Shown piece by piece: positions 13,542-39,301 of a DNA stretch of 39,301 nt (positions within the stretch are counted from its first letter, which is position 1; the number at the start of each line of letters is the position of its first letter). The position numbers and the translations under genes were made by a program. The DNA comes from a virus: IMG/VR virus record IMGVR_UViG_3300025096_002977, positions 1 to 39,301 of that record; one strand, 5' to 3'. The notes under the pieces are model-generated. The model saw nothing but the letters and a program-made list of their open reading frames with translations. It did no database searches and was not told the DNA's origin.

Positions 13542-14237
13542 TTATAAGATATCTATTTCGTTATTATCTAAAACTTTCTTTACCTTAGTAATTATCGTTT
13601 TTTGAATATTCTTAATTTGTTTATACCCCGGCTTTCTATCTTTCTCGGAAGTTTTGTATCCAACCGCTTTTGCGGCAGACTCTTCAGAGAGATTTTTTAT
13701 ATACAAAGCCTCGTATACTTTCCATTCTAAGGGCTTTAAAACGCTCTTCATTTTCGCATGTAATTTAGCCGCGTTCGAAAAGAAGTTGTTCTCGGTATAA
13801 CTTAAGCTTTTTACTTCAAATAAATGATTCTCTAATGGCACAGCTATTTTAACATCATGAGCAATCTTTTTAGTCTTTTCCCATTTCGCGACTAAAGGGC
13901 ATCCGTCGTTTTGTTTGCCGTAAACCAAGCATTTATCTTCGGGCTCCGCTGCCGCGCATCGAGCACATGGTTTAGAATAATTACCGTAATTATTTCTAAT
14001 AATATTTTTAATTTGATTAGTTATGATCCTATTTAACCAAGGAGCTAAGGGGTGAGAGTGGTTGTAGAGATGCCACTTTTTAAAAATATGCAACTTGATT
14101 ATTTGGGCTACGTCATCAAAATCTAACCAGCTCAAAGAATGGAGCGTCCAGCGACCCTTTCTTTTTTCTATCTCTCTGTTTATTAAAGGAATAGACTCCT
14201 CAAAAGAGGGTTTTAGCTTTTTCCTTCTTTTACCCAT
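13542..14237 (-). CDS. Phage sigma factor (sigma70 family) with cysteine insert
   Basis: 231 residues. Residues 38-84 (LDFDDVAQIIKLHIF ... WLNRIITNQIKNIIRNN) match sigma region 2, which binds core polymerase and the -10 element. Residues 163-197 (MKSVLKPLEWKVYEALYIKNL ... AAKAVGY) match region 4, the -35 reader. Between them C91, C94, C103 and C113 could bind zinc, unusual for sigma factors. A T4 gp55-like role in switching host RNA polymerase to late promoters is the simplest reading. It overlaps the zinc-ribbon gene by 8 nt. Confidence 0.8.
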   Translation of the reverse strand: MGKRRKKLKPSFEESIPLINREIEKRKGRWTLHSLSWLDFDDVAQIIKLHIFKKWHLYNHSHPLAPWLNRIITNQIKNIIRNNYGNYSKPCARCAAAEPEDKCLVYGKQNDGCPLVAKWEKTKKIAHDVKIAVPLENHLFEVKSLSYTENNFFSNAAKLHAKMKSVLKPLEWKVYEALYIKNLSEESAAKAVGYKTSEKDRKPGYKQIKNIQKTIITKVKKVLDNNEIDIL

Positions 14238-22747: not shown

Positions 22748-22756
22748 TTATTCACA
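22748..22756. promoter_or_regulatory. TTATTCACA site
   Basis: DnaA-box-like nonamer over a stop codon, -43 to -51 from the 22705 start. Confidence 0.6.
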
Positions 22757-22960: not shown

Positions 22961-22997
22961 AATATACCATAGGAGGTAGGACATCCGCTGTCCTACC
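22961..22997 (-). promoter_or_regulatory. Promoter with palindromic operator, copy A
   Basis: GGTAGGACA-N5-TGTCCTACC (22975-22997), 8 bp, TATATT, then ATG at predicted +1 (22954). The palindrome replaces the -35. Confidence 0.75.
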
Positions 22998-23291: not shown

Positions 23292-23576
23292 TCACACGTT
23301 ATCCCCAAACTCTGCTTTGGCATCGGCATAAAACTCTCTGCTGGTTGGCAGCATATCGCGAAAGCTTTCAGCGTCTCGCTTGGCTTTGTTGGCTCTCTCT
23401 TGTGTGTCTACTATGGCCGCTTTGGCTCCCACTAGTTGAGCTTTGATGCCAACAAGGATTGCTTCGCGTGGCTGCTTGTTGATGTCCATTGCGACAAATG
23501 CCTCGCAGGATTCGATTACATGGTTGGCCGCCTCGCGGTAGCTCTGGAATGCTTGGGTTGTTTCTTCGTTCTTCAT
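23292..23576 (-). CDS. Small helical early protein with DAESF motif
   Basis: 94 residues from the ATG at 23576 (MKNEETTQAF). Alanine-rich and helical. Its C-terminus, DAESFRDMLPTSREFYADA, closely matches the C-terminal part of the protein at 26213-26437, pointing to module sharing. Leader about 2 nt from a TTGACT-N17-TAAGTT promoter. Function unknown. Confidence 0.7.
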   Translation of the reverse strand: MKNEETTQAFQSYREAANHVIESCEAFVAMDINKQPREAILVGIKAQLVGAKAAIVDTQERANKAKRDAESFRDMLPTSREFYADAKAEFGDNV

Positions 23577-23613: not shown

Positions 23614-23683
23614 ATGCATAGCGAAAATAATCCAATGGGTTATCCACAGGCTGTGAATAACTTTCGCCTGTTACTTAAATAAG

Positions 23684-23699
23684 TGGCACGAAACTTGCT
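23684..23699 (+). promoter_or_regulatory. Sigma54-like promoter core, copy 1
   Basis: TGGCACGAAACTTGCT matches the sigma54 consensus TGGCACG-N4-TTGCW with the GG/GC spacing intact. Confidence 0.6.
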
Positions 23700-23709
23700 G
23701 TTGTTGGAG

Positions 23710-23760
23710 CATTAATAATGAGACTAGGTCGCAATAAAAAACAGGGCAGCCCCGTTTTTT
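23710..23760 (+). ncRNA. Predicted ~50-nt RNA 1 from sigma54-like promoter
   Basis: Predicted start 12 nt after the -12 GC of the sigma54 core at 23684-23699; ends at the T-run of the hairpin at 23732-23764. Contains no convincing gene. One of three units with the same spacing. Confidence 0.42.
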
Positions 23761-23764
23761 ATTG
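23732..23764. terminator. Intrinsic terminator
   Basis: Long inverted repeat around AGGGCAGCCCC with A-run left and T-run right; may stop both directions. Confidence 0.75.
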
Positions 23765-23898
23765 AGACTTTGTCTCGTTAAGAAATATATAAAGCGCCTG
23801 TATATATATCACTTCACGAGCAACCGGACGCGTTTGCTAGTATATAAATAGCCAAACAGAATAGTAAAGGTATGGAGTTGTTGTCCTCTATAAACATA

Positions 23899-24063
23899 TC
23901 ACAGTATAGGGTCAGCGTTGTCTTGATATATTTCGAACTCTTCGCCGTCCTCATCTCGGCAGTACAAAATGCCGTCTGCGATTTCCTCCACCATGCCCCA
24001 GCGGCCTTCGTGGACTAACTCGGTATTGATTCGGATTTCCTCTTTTAGAATGTCAGTAGTCAT
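23899..24063 (-). CDS. Small acidic protein
   Basis: 54 residues beginning MTTDILKEEIRINTELVHEG and ending in an aspartate/glutamate-rich segment (YCRDEDGEEFEIYQDNADPIL). It lies 13 nt after the membrane peptide gene at 24077-24250 and should be its operon partner. Codons and the clean acidic composition suggest a real gene. Function unknown. Confidence 0.6.
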   Translation of the reverse strand: MTTDILKEEIRINTELVHEGRWGMVEEIADGILYCRDEDGEEFEIYQDNADPIL

Positions 24064-24076
24064 AATAGTTTGCCCC

Positions 24077-24250
24077 TTAAAAGATCATTGTTGCAAGGAT
24101 TGTTGCGAGGACGATAATAACGCCGACTTGCGAGGCAATGAAAAGCTCCAAAGCTCTGTTTTGCTTTTTGACTTTTTCAATCTCATCCATGTGGATGTTT
24201 TTGATCTCGTAGTAGTTGGCCCAGTGGTTTGTTTTTGTTTGTTCGTTCAT
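24077..24250 (-). CDS. Small single-span membrane protein
   Basis: 57 residues: MNEQTKTNHWANYYEIKNI, a charged helix (MDEIEKVKKQNRALE) and a C-terminal membrane segment (LFIASQVGVIIVLATILATMIF). It has its own promoter with a 3-nt leader. A tail-anchored early protein; membrane remodelling or superinfection exclusion are possible but unproven. Confidence 0.68.
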   Translation of the reverse strand: MNEQTKTNHWANYYEIKNIHMDEIEKVKKQNRALELFIASQVGVIIVLATILATMIF

Positions 24251-24259
24251 CTTGTTAAT

Positions 24260-24288
24260 ACTATAAGGTTAATTCTTAAAAAAGTCAA
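24260..24288 (-). promoter_or_regulatory. Leaderless promoter
   Basis: TTGACT-N17-TATAGT, ATG at +4 (24250). TTATTCACA at -53 to -61. Confidence 0.72.
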
Positions 24289-24305
24289 TGGTCAATCTGA
24301 AAAAG

Positions 24306-24314
24306 TTATTCACA
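24306..24314. promoter_or_regulatory. TTATTCACA site
   Basis: Perfect copy over a stop codon, -53 to -61 from the 24253 start. Confidence 0.62.
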
Positions 24315-24617
24315 GACCTTAAAGGCTGGGCGGCTGCGATGCCCTTCAGAATAAGAGGGGCACAATATCGAAACGTCTTCACTGCCTGTTTGCGCGAATA
24401 GTTTACCGATGGCATAGTCAACCCAACCATGCGCGACTTGCTGTCCACCGTAGAGATCAATAGCCTTTTGCATGTCCTTGACGAATTCAGGGGTGGCAGG
24501 CTTCGCGTCGCTGCTAAAGTGAGCACAGCAAGAATCAAACCCGCTAAACTTGTTGGCATACTTAAAGCCTGTCGCGTGGAGTTCAATGTAGTAATTCTGT
24601 TTCTTTTCGTTCTTCAT
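24306..24617 (-). CDS. Small early hypothetical protein, MKNE family
   Basis: 103 residues: MKNEKKQNYYIELHATGFKY, then a cysteine/serine segment (FDSCCAHFSSDAKP) and a helix with GGQQVAHGWVDYAIGKLF, ending VCE. The leader is 2 nt from a perfect TTGACT-N17-TATATT promoter. The stop codon overlaps a TTATTCACA site belonging to the next promoter. Function unknown. Confidence 0.72.
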   Translation of the reverse strand: MKNEKKQNYYIELHATGFKYANKFSGFDSCCAHFSSDAKPATPEFVKDMQKAIDLYGGQQVAHGWVDYAIGKLFAQTGSEDVSILCPSYSEGHRSRPAFKVCE

Positions 24618-24625
24618 CTTGGTTA

Positions 24626-24654
24626 AATATAATCTATAAACTTAAAAAAGTCAA
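24626..24654 (-). promoter_or_regulatory. Leaderless promoter
   Basis: TTGACT-N17-TATATT, ATG at +3 (24617). TTATTCACT at -53 to -61. Confidence 0.78.
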
Positions 24655-24671
24655 GGGGAAATCTGAAAAAG

Positions 24672-24680
24672 TTATTCACT
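24672..24680. promoter_or_regulatory. TTATTCACA-like site
   Basis: TTATTCACT, -53 to -61 from the 24619 start. Confidence 0.52.
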
Positions 24681-24903
24681 TCCAAATTCCCGATTGCGTG
24701 CCGTGGAGGTAGTTGTGGAGGCCCACTTTGTTAATCCAAGCTTTTTCAAGCTCGCCGTATTGGCTCTCGGTTGTGCCTCTGCCGTTGGCGTGCTGTAGGG
24801 CGCGGAAATGCACCTCTGCATCGCGCAGCGTGTCATTTAGAACAGCGGCGACAATGTTCATTTCGGTGGAGGTTTTTACGGCGTTCTGTTTTTTGTTCTT
24901 CAT
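24676..24903 (-). CDS. Small early hypothetical protein, MKNK start
   Basis: 75 residues: MKNKKQNAVKTSTEMNIVAAVLN, a helical middle, and a KVGLHNYLHGTQSG end. Its promoter is a perfect copy of the region's consensus and it is the leftward partner of a divergent cassette with a sigma54-like element. Function unknown. Confidence 0.7.
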   Translation of the reverse strand: MKNKKQNAVKTSTEMNIVAAVLNDTLRDAEVHFRALQHANGRGTTESQYGELEKAWINKVGLHNYLHGTQSGIWK

Positions 24904-24911
24904 CTTGACTA

Positions 24912-24940
24912 AATATAGTCTATAAACTTAAAAAAGTCAA
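24912..24940 (-). promoter_or_regulatory. Leaderless promoter
   Basis: TTGACT-N17-TATATT, ATG at +3 (24903). TTGTTCACA at -53 to -61. Confidence 0.78.
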
Positions 24941-25001
24941 TGGTCAATCTGAAGAAGTTGTTCACAGGCCGTGAATAACTCCGGCCTGTTACTTAAATAA
25001 G

Positions 25002-25017
25002 TGGCACGAAACTTGCT
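25002..25017 (+). promoter_or_regulatory. Sigma54-like promoter core, copy 2
   Basis: Identical TGGCACGAAACTTGCT, 24 nt to the right of a TTATTCACA-type inverted pair. Confidence 0.6.
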
Positions 25018-25027
25018 GTTGTTGGGC

Positions 25028-25079
25028 GCTCTCTTAACGCGACAAAGTCTCAATAAAAAACGGGGCTGCCCCGTTTTTT
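25028..25079 (+). ncRNA. Predicted ~50-nt RNA 2 from sigma54-like promoter
   Basis: Same layout: promoter core at 25002-25017, terminator at 25055-25079. The left part differs from unit 1, resembling the inverse of unit 1's flank. Confidence 0.42.
25055..25079. terminator. Bidirectional intrinsic terminator
   Basis: AAAAAACGGGG-CTG-CCCCGTTTTTT, near perfect. Ends the 25867 operon. Confidence 0.85.
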
Positions 25080-25105
25080 GCCTTGTCAACTAAAAAATAT
25101 AAAAC

Positions 25106-25243
25106 TTATTCACTAAACTTGTTGAGCTTTCCTGAATCGTCAAAAACAAAAATCCGATTACCAAAACGAACGCGTTTCACTTTGCGTTTGCGCTGCGTTA
25201 TTTGAGCTTTAAGCTTGTGTAGCTTATTTAATATTTTAATCAT
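25106..25243 (-). CDS. Small basic protein
   Basis: 45 residues, strongly basic: MIKILNKLHKLKAQITQRKR, then RVRFGNRIFVFDDSGKLNKFSE. It follows the 25246-25518 gene after 2 nt and ends just before the terminator at 25055-25079, so it is the last gene of the operon starting at 25867. Possible nucleic-acid binder judging by charge only. Confidence 0.6.
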   Translation of the reverse strand: MIKILNKLHKLKAQITQRKRKVKRVRFGNRIFVFDDSGKLNKFSE

Positions 25244-25245
25244 TG

Positions 25246-25518
25246 TTATTTGTAAATGGGAGTTGAGGTGTCGTTGCGATACGTGCGAAGGTCTTCAAGG
25301 TAATCTTCTACCTCGTCTTTACTTGCATAAAGCAAATCTTCAAAAGGTATTGTGATACCCGCGCCATTATCGACGGACTGACCATCAAAGGTCTCGAGCC
25401 AAACCCCTTCGCATGGAATAACGTTCACAAGGCGAACAGCTTCCATTGTTCCGGCATAAACGTAAATACGCCCGACTTGCAGATTGTGAGCTTGCCAGCT
25501 TTTATCTATATTCATCAT
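25246..25518 (-). CDS. Small early hypothetical protein
   Basis: 90 residues: MMNIDKSWQAHNLQVGRIYVY, a beta-rich middle and an acidic helix ending in KDEVEDYLEDLRTYR. The end resembles that of the 31341-31568 protein (EEVDSYLEESENL), with a comparable beta-rich first half, so these may be paralogues. Fourth gene of the 25867 operon. Function unknown. Confidence 0.68.
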   Translation of the reverse strand: MMNIDKSWQAHNLQVGRIYVYAGTMEAVRLVNVIPCEGVWLETFDGQSVDNGAGITIPFEDLLYASKDEVEDYLEDLRTYRNDTSTPIYK

Positions 25519-25524
25519 AATCTT

Positions 25525-25593
25525 CTATTCGTTGTCTCTGATTGGATACTCTTTGCCATCGGGCGCGGTGATGGTTTCTTCTCTATCTCTCAT
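25525..25593 (-). CDS. 22-residue micropeptide
   Basis: MRDREETITAPDGKEYPIRD plus two residues, polar and charged, between genes of the 25867 operon (8 nt and 6 nt gaps). It resembles the small KEYPI-type tails common in phage proteins, but at this length it may only be a translated leader for the next gene. Confidence 0.4.
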   Translation of the reverse strand: MRDREETITAPDGKEYPIRDNE

Positions 25594-25601
25594 AATCTTT
25601 T

Positions 25602-25709
25602 TTAGTGTGTTGCGAGGAAGATAGCCAGTTGCTCCTCTTCCCATTGCGTTAGCTTAATGCCCTTTGCGACAGCTTCTAACAGTAGTCTTGCTTGGTATTC
25701 GTTAATCAT
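25602..25709 (-). CDS. 35-residue helical micropeptide
   Basis: MINEYQARLLLEAVAKGIKL followed by an acidic helix and a hydrophobic end (AIFLATH). Its ATG overlaps the stop codon of the 25709-25867 gene by one base (TAATG), a common translational coupling. Function unknown. Confidence 0.5.
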   Translation of the reverse strand: MINEYQARLLLEAVAKGIKLTQWEEEQLAIFLATH

Positions 25710-25867
25710 TATCTTTCCATACTTTCTTCGTAGGTTAACACTCTTGTGCCTTTGCTGCCTTCAGCTTTCTTTTTGGCTTCAGCTTCCTTGTGGAGGGCGG
25801 CAAAATTAGCCATAACCCACTCGCCCCACTTTGGGAGGTTTTCTTGTTTTTCGTTTTTCATTTTCAT
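25709..25867 (-). CDS. Small early protein under palindromic operator
   Basis: 52 residues: MKMKNEKQENLPKWGEWVMA, then a lysine/alanine-rich helix and YEESMER. It is the first gene of a five-gene mini-operon (25867 to 25106). The ATG is exactly at the predicted transcription start of the second copy of the operator-controlled promoter. Function unknown. Confidence 0.65.
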   Translation of the reverse strand: MKMKNEKQENLPKWGEWVMANFAALHKEAEAKKKAEGSKGTRVLTYEESMER

Positions 25868-25873
25868 AATATA

Positions 25874-25910
25874 ATTGTATCACATAGGGTGGGACATCCG
25901 CTGTCCTACC
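25874..25910 (-). promoter_or_regulatory. Promoter with palindromic operator, copy B
   Basis: GGTAGGACA-N5-TGTCCCACC (25888-25910), 8 bp, TACAAT; ATG at predicted +1 (25867). Drives a five-gene operon. Confidence 0.75.
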
Positions 25911-25921
25911 ATTAAACTTTT

Positions 25922-26158
25922 TTATCTTATCTCATTTACAGCCTTTTCAGCTTCTACGCACTCAGCGTGACAGTGCGAGTAAATCGCTTTAATGTCATTG
26001 GTGCGATAAATCGCAGCGCTACCAACTCCACCGAAATGCTCGCCATAAATGCGAACTTCAATGTCATTGACTTCAATCTCTGTCACAACGTCGAAGCGTG
26101 TGATGTTCTCAGCAATAAATTCTTGCTCTTCTTTGTTCAGTTTCATTTTCATTTTCAT
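25922..26158 (-). CDS. Small early protein under palindromic operator
   Basis: 78 residues from the ATG at 26158. A start at 26188 would begin inside the operator and is rejected. MKMKMKLNKEEQEFIAENIT is followed by alternating acidic and aromatic residues (VRIYGEHFGG) and a cysteine/histidine stretch (YSHCHAECVEAEK). The ATG coincides with the predicted transcription start. Function unknown. Confidence 0.7.
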   Translation of the reverse strand: MKMKMKLNKEEQEFIAENITRFDVVTEIEVNDIEVRIYGEHFGGVGSAAIYRTNDIKAIYSHCHAECVEAEKAVNEIR

Positions 26159-26164
26159 AAGTAA

Positions 26165-26201
26165 ATTATAGCGCAGAGGGTGGGACATCCGTAGTCCTAC
26201 C
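26165..26201 (-). promoter_or_regulatory. Promoter with palindromic operator, copy C
   Basis: GGTAGGACT-N5-TGTCCCACC (26179-26201), 8 bp, TATAAT; ATG at predicted +1 (26158). Confidence 0.75.
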
Positions 26202-26212
26202 CGTTAACTTTT

Positions 26213-26437
26213 TTACATTTCCGAATACGTGCCATCATAGCAATTTGGCTCATAATCCTCTGGGCCACAATCGGCATAGAACTCCTCTGCCGTGGGCATC
26301 ATGTCAGAAAAGCTTTCCGCGTCTTGCAATTCCCTCGTGGTCATTTGGGCCGCGATGCGGTTGGCGTGGTCTTGGTCGGTTGCTTTCACGAACTCGTTGC
26401 GTCCGTTTACTTTTACTGTGAAGATTGCTTCGTTCAT
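26213..26437 (-). CDS. Small early protein sharing HA-RIA and DAESF modules
   Basis: 74 residues from the second ATG (26437), which gives a 2-nt leader; the first ATG would start before transcription. IFTVKVNGRNEFVKATDQDH matches the N-terminal half of 27437-27631, and DAESFSDMMPTAEEFYADC matches 23292-23576. It looks assembled from modules found in two other genes. Function unknown. Confidence 0.7.
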   Translation of the reverse strand: MNEAIFTVKVNGRNEFVKATDQDHANRIAAQMTTRELQDAESFSDMMPTAEEFYADCGPEDYEPNCYDGTYSEM

Positions 26438-26445
26438 CATGATTA

Positions 26446-26474
26446 AACTTAATCCATAAACTTAAATAAGTCAA
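26446..26474 (-). promoter_or_regulatory. Leaderless promoter
   Basis: TTGACT-N17-TAAGTT, ATG at +3 (26437). TTATTCACA at -44 to -52. Confidence 0.72.
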
Positions 26475-26482
26475 TAGCAAAG

Positions 26483-26491
26483 TTATTCACA
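26483..26491. promoter_or_regulatory. TTATTCACA site
   Basis: Perfect copy over a stop codon, -44 to -52 from the 26439 start. Confidence 0.62.
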
Positions 26492-26770
26492 ATCAAAAGT
26501 GAACGTTTCGCCGCCATCGTAAGAATACGCCTCAACCTCATTGCAAAAGGGCAAAACGTTTTGAAGTTTTACCGTTTCGACCTCCACGCCGAAATCATCA
26601 AAAGAATGCCAGCCAGTAATTTTGTAGGTAATATTAAAATCTCTTGCGTCTCCCTCTTGGGCGGGGCGTGTAAGAGTAACCTCGCCTTCCTTGTCAAAGA
26701 CTTGCTGCCCGTTACAGGTTGGGTAGTTGTTGTGGTAGGTCGCTTGGTAGGTTGTTTGTTCGTTTTTCAT
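26483..26770 (-). CDS. Small early hypothetical protein, MKNE family
   Basis: 95 residues: MKNEQTTYQATYHNNYPTCN, beta-rich middle (FNITYKITGWHSFDDFGVEV) and acidic, cysteine-containing end (FDCE). Its promoter is a perfect consensus and lies beside the third divergent cassette. Function unknown. Confidence 0.72.
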   Translation of the reverse strand: MKNEQTTYQATYHNNYPTCNGQQVFDKEGEVTLTRPAQEGDARDFNITYKITGWHSFDDFGVEVETVKLQNVLPFCNEVEAYSYDGGETFTFDCE

Positions 26771-26778
26771 CTTGAGTA

Positions 26779-26807
26779 AATATAGTCTAGTTTCTTAAAT
26801 AAGTCAA
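26779..26807 (-). promoter_or_regulatory. Leaderless promoter
   Basis: TTGACT-N17-TATATT, ATG at +3 (26770). TTATTCACA at -42 to -50. Confidence 0.8.
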
Positions 26808-26857
26808 ATTAAATTATTCACAGGCTGTGAATAACTCCGGCCTGTTACTTAAATAAG

Positions 26858-26873
26858 TGGCACGAAACTTGCT
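26858..26873 (+). promoter_or_regulatory. Sigma54-like promoter core, copy 3
   Basis: Identical TGGCACGAAACTTGCT. All three cores keep the same distance to the inverted pair and to the terminator. Confidence 0.6.
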
Positions 26874-26883
26874 GATGATGGAG

Positions 26884-26933
26884 TATTGATAATGAGACTA
26901 GGTTGCAATAAAAAACGGGGCTGCCCCGTTTTT
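26884..26933 (+). ncRNA. Predicted ~50-nt RNA 3 from sigma54-like promoter
   Basis: Promoter core at 26858-26873, terminator hairpin at 26911-26933. Nearly the same left part as unit 1 (ATAATGAGACTAGG). Confidence 0.42.
26911..26933. terminator. Bidirectional intrinsic terminator
   Basis: AAAAACGGGG-CTG-CCCCGTTTTT. Confidence 0.82.
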
Positions 26934-31186: not shown

Positions 31187-31232
31187 TCTTTTTTTTAATT
31201 TTTATAAAAATATTATCCACTTGCGCGTAAGT

Positions 31233-36084: not shown

Positions 36085-36504
36085 GTGTTGTAATTCCTCT
36101 TGGATAATTTGCCGGAGCGACAGGGTGTTGTAATTCCTATATCAGTTACGCAAACAATAATAATAGTAAAAGTTTTTTGTGTTTTAGTTCCTATTAATTT
36201 TCAATATCCGAATCAGACTTGTGTTGTAATTCCTATATATTTATCCTTTATTTATTCTTATTTGATTCTTATTTATTTATATGTGATTACCAATTCCACG
36301 TGTTGTAGTGCCTTATATTTGGTCTGGATAAAGATATATAAATTTATGTTGTGTTGTAGTACCTTAAGGGCAGGTGTTGATATCTTTGTTGTGTTGTAGT
36401 ACCTTATTTATTTATATATGACTCTTATATATATGATAGATATTTAGCGTGTCATAGCTCCTATTATTTGAAAGGATATAAAAAAACGGGGCGTCGTAGC
36501 TCCA
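36085..36504 (+). repeat. Degenerate 15-bp repeat cluster, left
   Basis: Nine copies of GTGTTGTAGTTCCTTA-like units at 36085, 36125, 36179, 36221, 36300, 36351, 36391, 36449 and 36491; pitches 40, 54, 42, 79, 51, 40, 58, 42. Spacers are AT-rich and unique. The last copies degenerate (GTGTCATAGCTCCTA, GCGTCGTAGCTCCAA). Confidence 0.88.
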
Positions 36505-36609
36505 AAGTAAAGTGACCCTAGTGGTGTTCAATCCGCGTCAGTTAATGAACGCTGAACGGAGTTCTCTTCCGCCTCTATTCCAGAAGGGTCGGGGGGTAGT
36601 AGCTCTCAG

Positions 36610-36792
36610 TTAGCGAGCTACAAAGTTTTCAACTGTATTAAGAACATTACTAGTAAACTTACGTTTGTCTACGGGTCTCCACGCCACGCGGTTAACACCC
36701 ACCTCACGGCCTTCATAGACACGCTCCACTTGTACGCGACCATTCTCATCTTCGCGCATCATAACTTTATATTCTACATTTTTCTTTTTCAT
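36610..36792 (-). CDS. Small basic protein
   Basis: 60 residues: MKKKNVEYKVMMREDENGRV, beta-rich, then VNRVAWRPVDKRKFTSNVLN. Promoter TTGAGT-N17-TACAAT with a 1-nt leader. Sits between the RuvB-like gene and the first repeat cluster. Function unknown. Confidence 0.62.
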   Translation of the reverse strand: MKKKNVEYKVMMREDENGRVQVERVYEGREVGVNRVAWRPVDKRKFTSNVLNTVENFVAR

Positions 36793-36799
36793 TTTATTT

Positions 36800-36828
36800 A
36801 TTGTATGTTTTTTATATAATTAACTCAA
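36800..36828 (-). promoter_or_regulatory. Leaderless promoter
   Basis: TTGAGT-N17-TACAAT, ATG at +2 (36792). Confidence 0.65.
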
Positions 36829-37830
36829 TACTTTTCTATCTATTTTAATATCTAATTTTACAGGTTCATCTAAGTCTCTGAGGTATTTAATACCTTTGTT
36901 GGTTATAGAGCGTTGTCCATCAATGCTCATGAGATTTTGTTTTTGTAAAAACATTTCAAAGTCTTTTTGTACCGCAGTCTTGGTGAGCATGAGAGTTGCA
37001 GCGATCTTGGTGAGAGTGCAGCTACCGTTCTCTTGCAACACACGGAGAAGGCGTATCTCGATCTCATTCAAGCCAAGAGGGTTGATACTGAGCATCTTCT
37101 TAAAGTAGCACCAATCTTTATTCGTAAAGGGGATGCTGTCGCTGCTTTCCAACGCACCGGACATTATCTTGCCCTTGATGTAGCTCACAATGTCGGTAGC
37201 AGCCTTTTTAGCAGCGCGAGCGTTACCACGGAGAGTTGATGCGATATCGGGGAGAACGCCACCTTGGAAGTTCACCTTCTTTAACGAGAGAGCAACGATA
37301 GCTCCAAGCTCATCATAATTATAATCCTCAAGATCAATGCGAGTACAACGATCTTGCAAGGCGTGGAAAAGCTTATCAGCTTCAGTCGTAGCGAACATGA
37401 AGGTATGACGCTTAAAATCAATATCAATTACATAATCTCCATAAGTAAAGCGATTACGATTCTCGTCGTTGGGGTTAAGCATCGTAAGCATACCCATTGT
37501 TACGTCCTTGGGAAGCTCGCTCGCCTCATCAAAGATAAGCGTGAAGTGAGTGTTATCAGCTTGGAGAGCCAACATTTGTTGGCAAAATCCTTTAAGGTTT
37601 TTAATACCCGCGCAGTTGACAGTGTAGCTTGGCTTGTGCTTGTCGGCCCCTCTGAGCTTGAGAAGCTTCGCGGTTTCTTCTGCCATCAACGTCTTGCCGC
37701 AACCCTTGGGCGCAATGAACAAGAGGTGAGGTAAAATGTATGAAGAATTAAAATTTTTAATATAAAAACTTAATTTCTTTTTAGCCTTTGCTTGGCCTAT
37801 AACTTTTGGGAACATAACTGATTCGGACAT
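36820..37830 (-). CDS. RuvB-like AAA+ ATPase
   Basis: 336 residues. Walker A APKGCGKT (40-47), Walker B LIFDEASEL (98-106), sensor-1 FMFATTEADKL and the arginine-finger site ALQDRC (157-162). The C-terminal winged helix (LGLNEIEIRLLRVLQENG ... LTKIAATLMLTKTAVQKDFE ... ITNKGIKYL) is RuvB-like. RuvB drives Holliday junction branch migration with RuvA. No RuvA or RuvC seen; phage homologues may act alone. Flanked by the two repeat clusters, so a role in replication initiation or recombination is attractive. Confidence 0.85.
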   Translation of the reverse strand: MSESVMFPKVIGQAKAKKKLSFYIKNFNSSYILPHLLFIAPKGCGKTLMAEETAKLLKLRGADKHKPSYTVNCAGIKNLKGFCQQMLALQADNTHFTLIFDEASELPKDVTMGMLTMLNPNDENRNRFTYGDYVIDIDFKRHTFMFATTEADKLFHALQDRCTRIDLEDYNYDELGAIVALSLKKVNFQGGVLPDIASTLRGNARAAKKAATDIVSYIKGKIMSGALESSDSIPFTNKDWCYFKKMLSINPLGLNEIEIRLLRVLQENGSCTLTKIAATLMLTKTAVQKDFEMFLQKQNLMSIDGQRSITNKGIKYLRDLDEPVKLDIKIDRKVLS

Positions 37831-37839
37831 GATTCTTCT

Positions 37840-37867
37840 ATTATATGGATTTATAAGATTGAGTCAA
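37840..37867 (-). promoter_or_regulatory. Leaderless promoter of RuvB-like gene
   Basis: TTGACT-N16-TATAAT, ATG at +4 (37830). Confidence 0.72.
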
Positions 37868-37878
37868 GAATTATTTAA

Positions 37879-38136
37879 TTAAAAATCTACTAATAAATCT
37901 TCCTCCTCTTTTTCTTCGTCATTCTTAACGAATACACTTTCTTGCTTCACGGCGTTAACGGTGGTGCTATTAGAAGTGACCTTGCTTCCGTTAAGTCCAA
38001 GAGCCTCTACAAACTTCCGAGACACCATTACTGATGCGGTGGGTTTTAATACTTGATTGAGGGCGTGGAGCGAAATGGTGACAAAGCTTGTTGCTCCTTT
38101 TGTTTTTCCTCTCCCTCTTCCTTTTGTCGCTGGCAT
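37879..38136 (-). CDS. Small DNA-binding-like protein
   Basis: 85 residues: MPATKGRGRGKTKGATSFVT (basic glycine-rich), then ISLHALNQVLKPTASVMVSR and an acidic tail (NDEEKEEEDLLVDF). The mix of basic start and acidic end resembles small phage single-strand or nucleoid-binding proteins, but no fold is recognised. The ATG is exactly at the predicted start of TTGACC-N17-TACTAT. Confidence 0.6.
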   Translation of the reverse strand: MPATKGRGRGKTKGATSFVTISLHALNQVLKPTASVMVSRKFVEALGLNGSKVTSNSTTVNAVKQESVFVKNDEEKEEEDLLVDF

Positions 38137-38142
38137 TTAGAA

Positions 38143-38171
38143 ATAGTAATACTTTTATAAGTATTGGTCAA
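38143..38171 (-). promoter_or_regulatory. Leaderless promoter
   Basis: TTGACC-N17-TACTAT, ATG at +1 (38136). Confidence 0.68.
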
Positions 38172-38196
38172 GGAATATTTTTAATTAAATAGTAAT

Positions 38197-38227
38197 AAAA
38201 AGAAAAGCCCCCTCATTGCGAGGGGGC
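38197..38227 (-). terminator. Intrinsic terminator
   Basis: GCCCCCTC-GCAAT-GAGGGGGC then TTTTCTTTTT on the minus strand; ends the 38528 gene. Confidence 0.87.
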
Positions 38228-38258
38228 GTAAGGTCGTAAGCGAATGGCTTACTTTATG

Positions 38259-38528
38259 TTAAATGTTATTATTAATAATCTCTCTTAATTTTTTACCGTC
38301 AGTTGGTATTGCTCTATAGTCTTTCTTAGGTTCCCAACTGTCGTCTTCCGCTAAGATGCGGGTGGCTTTAGCAAGCTCAAGGTGCGTGCGTTCGTTCCCG
38401 TGAGGGTTCTCAATCACTTCTAATTGCTTCCATTCGGTAAGCTCCCAGAATACTTCGTGCCACGCAGCTTCATAGCGGTGAGCCATGATCCGGCGGAACT
38501 CTTGAGATTTTTTGGATATTCTTGGCAT
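38259..38528 (-). CDS. Small hypothetical protein near repeat cluster
   Basis: 89 residues: MPRISKKSQEFRRIMAHRYE, tryptophan-containing AWHEVFWELTEWKQLEV, then helical acidic. Followed by the terminator at 38207-38227. Its promoter lies inside the edge of the right repeat cluster. Function unknown. Confidence 0.62.
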   Translation of the reverse strand: MPRISKKSQEFRRIMAHRYEAAWHEVFWELTEWKQLEVIENPHGNERTHLELAKATRILAEDDSWEPKKDYRAIPTDGKKLREIINNNI

Positions 38529-38539
38529 AACGCTACTTA

Positions 38540-38567
38540 TAATTACACTTTAATATTTTCGGGTCAA
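38540..38567 (-). promoter_or_regulatory. Probable promoter, -10 ambiguous
   Basis: TTGACC with TAATTA after 16 bp (leader 5 nt), or TATAAG after 20 bp (leader 1 nt). Confidence 0.45.
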
Positions 38568-38595
38568 CAATATTTTATTCTTACTAAACTTCGAC

Positions 38596-39269
38596 GTGTT
38601 GTAGTTCCTTGTAATAATTAAACTAGTGCGTTCGACGTGTTGTAGTTCCTTATTATAATTAAACAAGTTCCTTGAGCGTGTTGTAGTTTCTTACCGTAGA
38701 TCATTTGCGTGTTATAGTTCCTTTATTTTTAAATATTTATTTATATTTATTCGTTTCTCAATCGCAATTAACCGTGTTGTTGCTCCTATATTTGATTAAA
38801 TGTCATTCTTATATGCGAAGAGTACACGTATGTGTTATTGTCCCTTTTTATTTATTATTAATTATTAATATTTATTTATATTTTAAAGATGTGTTGTTAT
38901 TCCTAATGATTATAATTCACCTTAATACAAGATTAGTGTTGTTGTTCCTTATGATAATTAAGAAAGGATGCCAATCGGTGTTATAGTTCCTTTATTTATT
39001 ACTAATTATTAATATTTAATCAACAGTATACGGCCCGTGTTGTAGTACCTCCTTATTTAATTAAAAATCATTTGCATTTGGGGTTTCTAAAAAACTTATT
39101 ATTTATTATTATTTATTTAAAATCATTATTAATCATTATTAATCATTATTATTTAGTCAAAAGTCATTCACAAATATATGATCGATTAATTTGAGTGTTG
39201 TTGTCCCTTATTTCGCAAAATATCATTCGCTTTTTTCATCAATGGCGTACTTGGTGTTGTAGTACCTTA
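38596..39269 (+). repeat. Degenerate 15-bp repeat cluster, right
   Basis: Twelve copies at 38596, 38637, 38678, 38709, 38774, 38832, 38891, 38936, 38978, 39037, 39195 and 39254; frequent pitches 41-45 and 58-59. Same consensus and orientation as the left cluster. AT-rich spacers contain TTATTTATTATTAATT-like runs. May continue beyond the right edge. Confidence 0.9.
39121..39150. repeat. Tandem AATCATTATT x3
   Basis: Three perfect 10-bp copies in the only long gap of the right cluster; could act as an AT-rich unwinding element. Confidence 0.8.
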
Positions 39270-39301
39270 TTGTTTTAACAGTATATAAAATTTATAAAGT
39301 A

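Follow-up and report, generated by a model that had tools for sequence, protein, structure and literature searches.

Sigma54-type promoter cores in a triplicated phage cassette and in intergenic arrays of other uncultivated phages: possible docking sites for host RNA polymerase

Results

A triplicated cassette with a sigma54-type core

The DNA analyzed here (the window) is the whole 39,301-base record of an uncultivated virus, IMGVR_UViG_3300025096_002977, the long genes of which lie on the minus strand. It harbors a cassette of approximately 120 nt in three copies (23640-23759, 24958-25077 and 26814-26933) that are 68-91% identical to each other, which bears out the three divergent cassettes claimed in a preliminary description made from the sequence. 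Because they are copies of one unit, the three cassettes count as one event plus duplications. Read in the plus orientation, the order within the unit is an inverted pair of TTATNCACA-type boxes with a 3-nt gap, 23 bp, the core TGGCACGAAACTTGCT and a hairpin of the form AAAAAACGGGGCTGCCCCGTTTTTT, in which copy 1 presents one imperfect pair (Table 1).

The core corresponds to the -24/-12 consensus of promoters read by sigma54 (RpoN) RNA polymerase. It occurs exactly three times, always on the plus strand, and the window cores present the fixed-spacing TGGCAYR-N4-TTGCW of a sigma54 promoter element, matching all 12 specified positions in the three copies when block shuffles expect 0.0; the perfect core previously claimed is hence upheld. 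Allowing up to three mismatches to TGGCACGAAACTTGCT revealed no further site in the window, and dinucleotide shuffles yielded a mean of 0.20 sites, none of 100 shuffles reaching three.

Table 1. Features of the three cassettes and of the genes divergent from them
Feature	Position	Strand	Remarks
Copy 1 inverted DnaA-box-like pair, TTATCCACA-ggc-TGTGAATAA	23640..23660		next-to-core position kept in G004, G014, L283
Copy 1 sigma54-type core, TGGCACG-AAAC-TTGCT	23684..23699	+	12/12 positions; kept at G004 syntenic slot
Copy 1 predicted transcript, ~52 nt	23710..23761	+	+1 set 11 nt past TTGCT; fold
Copy 1 long inverted repeat, bidirectional hairpin	23716..23780		stem core 23732-23764
Copy 1 divergent early gene	23292..23576	-	ATG 23576; TTGACT 23614-23609; G004 homologue 63% identity
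Copy 2 inverted box pair	24958..24978		one mismatch in each arm
Copy 2 sigma54-type core	25002..25017	+	exact core, 12/12 positions
Copy 2 predicted transcript, ~52 nt	25028..25079	+	hairpin about 25054-25080, arms inverted vs copy 1
Copy 2 sigma70-type promoter TTGACT-17-TATATT of divergent gene 24676-24903	24912..24940	-	
Copy 3 exact inverted pair, TTATTCACA-ggc-TGTGAATAA	26814..26834		
Copy 3 sigma54-type core	26858..26873	+	exact core, 12/12 positions
Copy 3 predicted transcript, ~50 nt	26884..26933	+	hairpin about 26911-26933
Copy 3 sigma70-type promoter TTGACT-17-TATATT of divergent gene 26483-26770	26779..26807	-	

Copy 3 (26814/26826) has the exact inverted pair and copy 1 (23640/23652) one of the TTATCCACA/TTATTCACA type; in copy 2 each arm carries a single mismatch (TTGTTCACA...CGTGAATAA). 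The preliminary description overlooked that the repeat matches TTATNCACA, the DnaA-box consensus, which TTATTCACA and TTATCCACA fit. In the window TTATNCACA occurs 10 times versus 1.24 expected, mostly within 22.7-27.7 kb. At 22748, 24306, 26483 and 27437, TTATTCACA overlaps the stop codon of a minus-strand gene (TGT GAA TAA), and these stop-overlapping boxes sit upstream of the next minus-strand promoter. The enrichment would suit a replication origin in which DnaA boxes are combined with an RNA primer made by sigma54 polymerase; however, boxes are also found singly beside ordinary minus-strand promoters and there is no clear GC-skew switch at the cassettes, so that an origin is hardly credible here.

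As for the divergent genes, which had been predicted to be leaderless, those at copies 2 and 3 are indeed nearly so, with the ATG 8 nt beyond the minus-strand promoter, but the gene beside copy 1 combines its TTGACT element with a weaker -10.

Predicted transcripts and their hairpins

With the predicted +1 placed 11 nt past the core, the putative RNAs (52, 52 and 50 nt) fold into strong A/T-flanked GC hairpins of -14.7, -15.4 and -16.2 kcal/mol (z of -2.8, -2.7 and -2.3, respectively). Only the window copies present a GC stem followed by a U-run, as in an intrinsic terminator, and there the T-run pairs within the stem. The terminator proposed 50-52 nt past the start is accordingly represented by a strong hairpin in all three copies, but a simple terminator scan lists none of them, probably owing to this pairing of the T-run. 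Copy 1 contains a full 32-nt inverted repeat, and its RNA resembles that of copy 3, copy 2 departing in the 5' half. A search of the whole window against Rfam returned no matches, and hence no known small RNA family for the cassette RNAs.

Relative to copy 1, copy 2 has its hairpin arm in inverted orientation (23736-23783 and 25032-25079; 48 nt, 96% complementary), as if the palindrome had been flipped. Other GGGGC[TA]GCCCC hairpins, at 31211, 33010, 34818 and 35998, form one family with the cassette hairpin. A second recurrent hairpin, GGTGGGACATCCGCTGTCCTACC, lies between early genes at 22975, 25888 and 26178, and GTGTTGTAGTACCTTAT-type repeats are numerous in the AT-rich end region (36085-39271).

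Conservation in the phage lineage

The search for the cassette in related phages recovered core and box in G004, at the same slot, in G014 and in L283. G004 (loci L010/L134) is collinear with the window, most shared structural-region proteins being 74-90% identical, and its element occupies the slot of copy 1, between homologues of 23292-23576 (63%) and 23899-24063 (78%). It retains the box pair, a CTTAAA-AAG segment and a core with N4 GAAC; the downstream sequence is unlike that of the window, the plus-strand T-run is missing and a second core faces the first one some 105 bp off. In G014 (L029/L135; structural region mostly 53-72%), three cores match at 10-11 of the 12 positions, each beside a TGTGAATAA box 13 or 20 bp away; two of the three face each other and two are followed by GTTGTTGG. 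L283 (about 48-70%) presents a box pair and TGGCACG-TTTG-CTGCT. Taking the first N4 of each core, some of these cores being 10-11/12 matches, the variable bases are AAAC in the window, GAAC and AAAC in G004, AAAC, CAAG and AGAC in G014 and TTTG in L283. The lineage thus keeps core and box, with N4, RNA and terminator changing; no downstream transcript or gene is conserved, the RNA differing in G004 and G014. Between the facing cores of G004 (L134 14544-14640) and G014 (L135 5754-5860) there are TACGTGTACGTACTA repeats, perhaps the site of another protein.

No isolated phage was identified as a relative by DNA or portal, and the terminase matches isolates at about 24-30% identity over partial length. 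When IMG/VR was scanned for exact 17-mer matches, several hits fell in coding regions or were unrelated, the informative ones being L010, L007, L011 and L012. Relatives reached by way of the GP88 gene carry no arrays, and the lack of a portal relative in 388 genomes of the phylum of G083, examined for a prophage link, is an uninformative negative.

Core arrays in other phages

The preliminary description overlooked the reach of core arrays far beyond the window phage. The divergent-pair pattern was found in 68 IMG/VR stretches, and in none with the inner spacing 1 bp shorter; the loci fetched, some of them overlapping, hold 475 correctly spaced cores and none with a spacing changed by one in either direction. 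When TGGCAY was used as the only anchor and the retrieval pairs were masked, a T before it and G, T, G, C and T at positions 6, 12, 13, 14 and 15 emerged, and the resulting YTGGCAYG-N4-TTGCT with fixed spacing is the sigma54 consensus. As many as 34 cores are packed into the 49 kb of one record (G068), and a 19-kb record (G070) has 22; the reversed pattern is absent from both. Small-gene regions of G005 and G001 contain 20 and 11 cores, respectively, the intergenic cassette of G005 consisting of a leftward core, a rightward core, a hairpin and a leftward core. A chance origin of the cores is ruled out by the shuffles, by the strict spacing across phage records and by the spacing-shifted IMG/VR control, and in our judgment they are quite probably true sigma54-class elements. 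In array phages, the stretch between facing cores is occupied by GTAAGTC-TTGAT-type hairpins (L132 2787-7590) or by long poly-C/poly-G stems (L144 6265-6800).

The geometry of the arrays was analyzed on 402 unique sites from other phages. Gaps between convergent cores concentrate at 2-6 bp, which had played no part in retrieval, and those between divergent cores at 5-10 bp (retrieval allowed 5-13); the cores display no bias toward pointing at open reading frames (181 ahead, 187 behind). Going by the footprint of sigma54 polymerase, cores 2-10 bp apart are too close for joint occupancy, and hence the array cores cannot all be occupied promoters. Between core arms, the variable N4 bases match about as often as expected by chance or less, and at the C/T position 0.19-0.29 of core pairs match versus 0.50-0.52 expected, a figure that related repeats may inflate. 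The hairpin as the selected feature was rejected on the grounds that inverted core arms are not complementary beyond the shared motif, and therefore the sites look like protein-binding DNA rather than hairpins.

The same evidence bears on the notion of a mobile hairpin, similar to a miniature inverted-repeat transposable element, with terminal repeats that resemble the sigma54 core by chance. Convergent cores do flank hairpins in G004, G014 and G005, and the flipped hairpin of copy 2 would be in keeping with mobility; yet the hairpins vary between phages while the core is constant, the non-complementary arms diverge in N4, the gaps vary and hairpin-free arrays exist, which leaves such an element very unlikely.

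No general protein family is common to the array-bearing loci, the best one being present in 16 of about 68, and this points to a host factor as the putative recognizer. Domain searches found no sigma54 activator (PF00158) in the window record or in seven further records, although the host may supply one. Nor did any of seven array-bearing or related records show a DNA-binding domain of RpoN, the window lying outside that second search; a phage-encoded RpoN or activator was thus not found in the records searched. The protein encoded at 13542-14237, kept in the lineage, matches sigma70 region 2 (Pfam E 7e-6) and is possibly a phage sigma factor.

Cores in bacterial genomes

Nine whole bacterial genomes (1.2-6.9 Mb) contain 3-26 cores, with controls at 0-13. 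In rumen genomes of the Verrucomicrobiota/Lentisphaerota/Kiritimatiellae type, a short-gap divergent pair lies between a putative GspE/PilB-like ATPase gene, so labeled from its sequence, and a second gene; in the clearest cases the ATG falls 13-15 nt past each core. These divergent pairs fit sigma54 promoters with near-leaderless mRNAs, and they hint at the host group of some array phages. At L209 (690-770) and similar loci, divergent bacterial genes have sigma54-type promoters placed back to back at a distance of 5 bp, with the ATG 13-15 nt past a core. The matches in Arthrobacter and Kibdelosporangium, unlike the phage pairs, are perfect palindromes resembling terminators.

Discussion

Docking sites or promoters

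Our tentative interpretation, held with slightly less than even confidence, is that the cores serve for docking host sigma54 polymerase at the borders of early units, for titration, roadblocking or both. The cores would act as recognition elements for the host RpoN holoenzyme at the edges of small early transcription units, accompanied in the cassette by the DnaA-box-like palindromes and the bidirectional hairpin. The sequences show the exact consensus, the strict spacing, conservation with a free N4 and recurrence in many phages as inverted intergenic pairs and arrays; the property under selection would be binding. Binding is also favored by the layout of the arrays, with convergent gaps of 2-6 bp, no orientation toward open reading frames and non-complementary arms, and by the 34 cores of G068 as compared with 3-26 in nine whole bacterial genomes, although these are not known hosts and the window has only three cores. 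Bound sigma54 polymerase has been shown to stay inactive in transcription until an activator acts (PMC4591121; PMC3844500), and RpoN binds DNA by itself, albeit less well (PMC5626770). A docked holoenzyme would form a stable closed complex, requiring an activator to fire, and would be drawn off host sigma54 promoters and/or block or insulate the adjoining early units. Firing into short RNAs that end at the hairpin would, given an activator, be no more than a side effect, although the single-sided cassettes of the window might still fire.

Several observations weigh against docking. GTTGTTGG is found directly 3' of the core in the window cores W1 and W2 and in two of the G014 cores, as if initiation mattered; the window has only three cassettes, single-sided and with a good terminator, which is also compatible with promoters; and in bacteria divergent pairs 5-7 bp apart are apparently real promoters as well. 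Furthermore, most other portal relatives, many of them short fragments, lack the exact core.

The preliminary description had instead envisaged three sigma54 promoters, fired by a host activator on infection and each producing an RNA of about 50 nt that ends at the hairpin and regulates targets. Its structural premises are sound: the elements are of sigma54 type, core, spacing and hairpin position are consistent in the three copies, the RNAs of copies 1 and 3 are similar, the downstream GTTGTTGG is partly kept and, in Verrucomicrobiota-type genomes, an ATG follows the core of apparent sigma54 promoters by 13-15 nt. The RNAs themselves fare worse, since copy 2 differs in its 5' half, the G004 slot carries an unrelated RNA without the plus-strand T-run, cores face each other in G004 and G014 or crowd into arrays at 2-10 bp, Rfam returned no match and the window record has no activator gene. 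On balance, we deem regulation by three small RNAs rather unlikely, though for the window it is the chief alternative to docking, ahead of another protein of like specificity.

A DNA-binding protein other than sigma54, encoded by the phage or by the host, might instead read TGGCAYG-N4-YTGCT, the arrays then being operator-like clusters that control early genes. Their regular close spacing and alternating orientation do resemble operators, as do the G070 clusters upstream of gene starts, and adjoining cores are too close for several polymerases. Such a protein would nonetheless have to match the sigma54 consensus independently, down to the free N4 and the preference for a T before TGGCA, and no protein family is common to most array loci; nor was an RpoN DNA-binding domain detected in the seven records mentioned above. 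We thus consider this alternative unlikely.

If docking is the correct reading, several unrelated lineages of uncultivated phages might carry natural arrays of sigma54 sites that sequester host polymerase, or employ its stalled closed complex to insulate early operons from one another, a form of host takeover built of DNA instead of protein; this is a possibility that we put forward with greater reserve. A link has been drawn between sigma54 and the regulation of the cell exterior, namely pili, flagella, exopolysaccharide and lipopolysaccharide (PMC3162934), and the cell exterior is where phages attach. The known means by which phages control host transcription are chiefly proteins, and arrays of sigma54 sites would, if true, represent protein-free capture of a specific holoenzyme. 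The arrays are easily found by pattern and may yield host clues for uncultivated phages.

Comparison with known systems

Sigma54 elements as such are known; inverted multi-copy arrays of them in phages were not met in the open-licence literature searched. With respect to DnaA boxes, the pair fits TTATNCACA in copies 1 and 3, but the putative boxes form a palindrome beside promoters and cores, outside any recognizable origin, and could be the operator of another regulator. The likeness to sigma54 (RpoN) -24/-12 promoters extends to the 12 consensus positions, the spacing and, across the phage set, the preferred T before TGGCA; C/T at position 6 and C at position 12 are tolerated, as they are in Salmonella sites (PMC3844500). 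The elements described here differ in being phage-borne and duplicated, with no gene downstream, and in having relatives with facing or back-to-back pairs and arrays. Another parallel is offered by the non-promoter sigma54 sites of E. coli and Salmonella, intragenic or antisense, at which inactive bound polymerase yields no obvious transcription and for which interference has been proposed (PMC4591121; PMC3844500); those sites are single, chromosomal and mostly intragenic, whereas the phage sites form dense intergenic arrays. Finally, in transcription-factor decoy arrays many consensus sites on multicopy DNA would titrate the factor (PMC7826281), but those arrays are engineered, whereas the phage arrays are natural and directed to a sigma factor, with titration as their putative effect.

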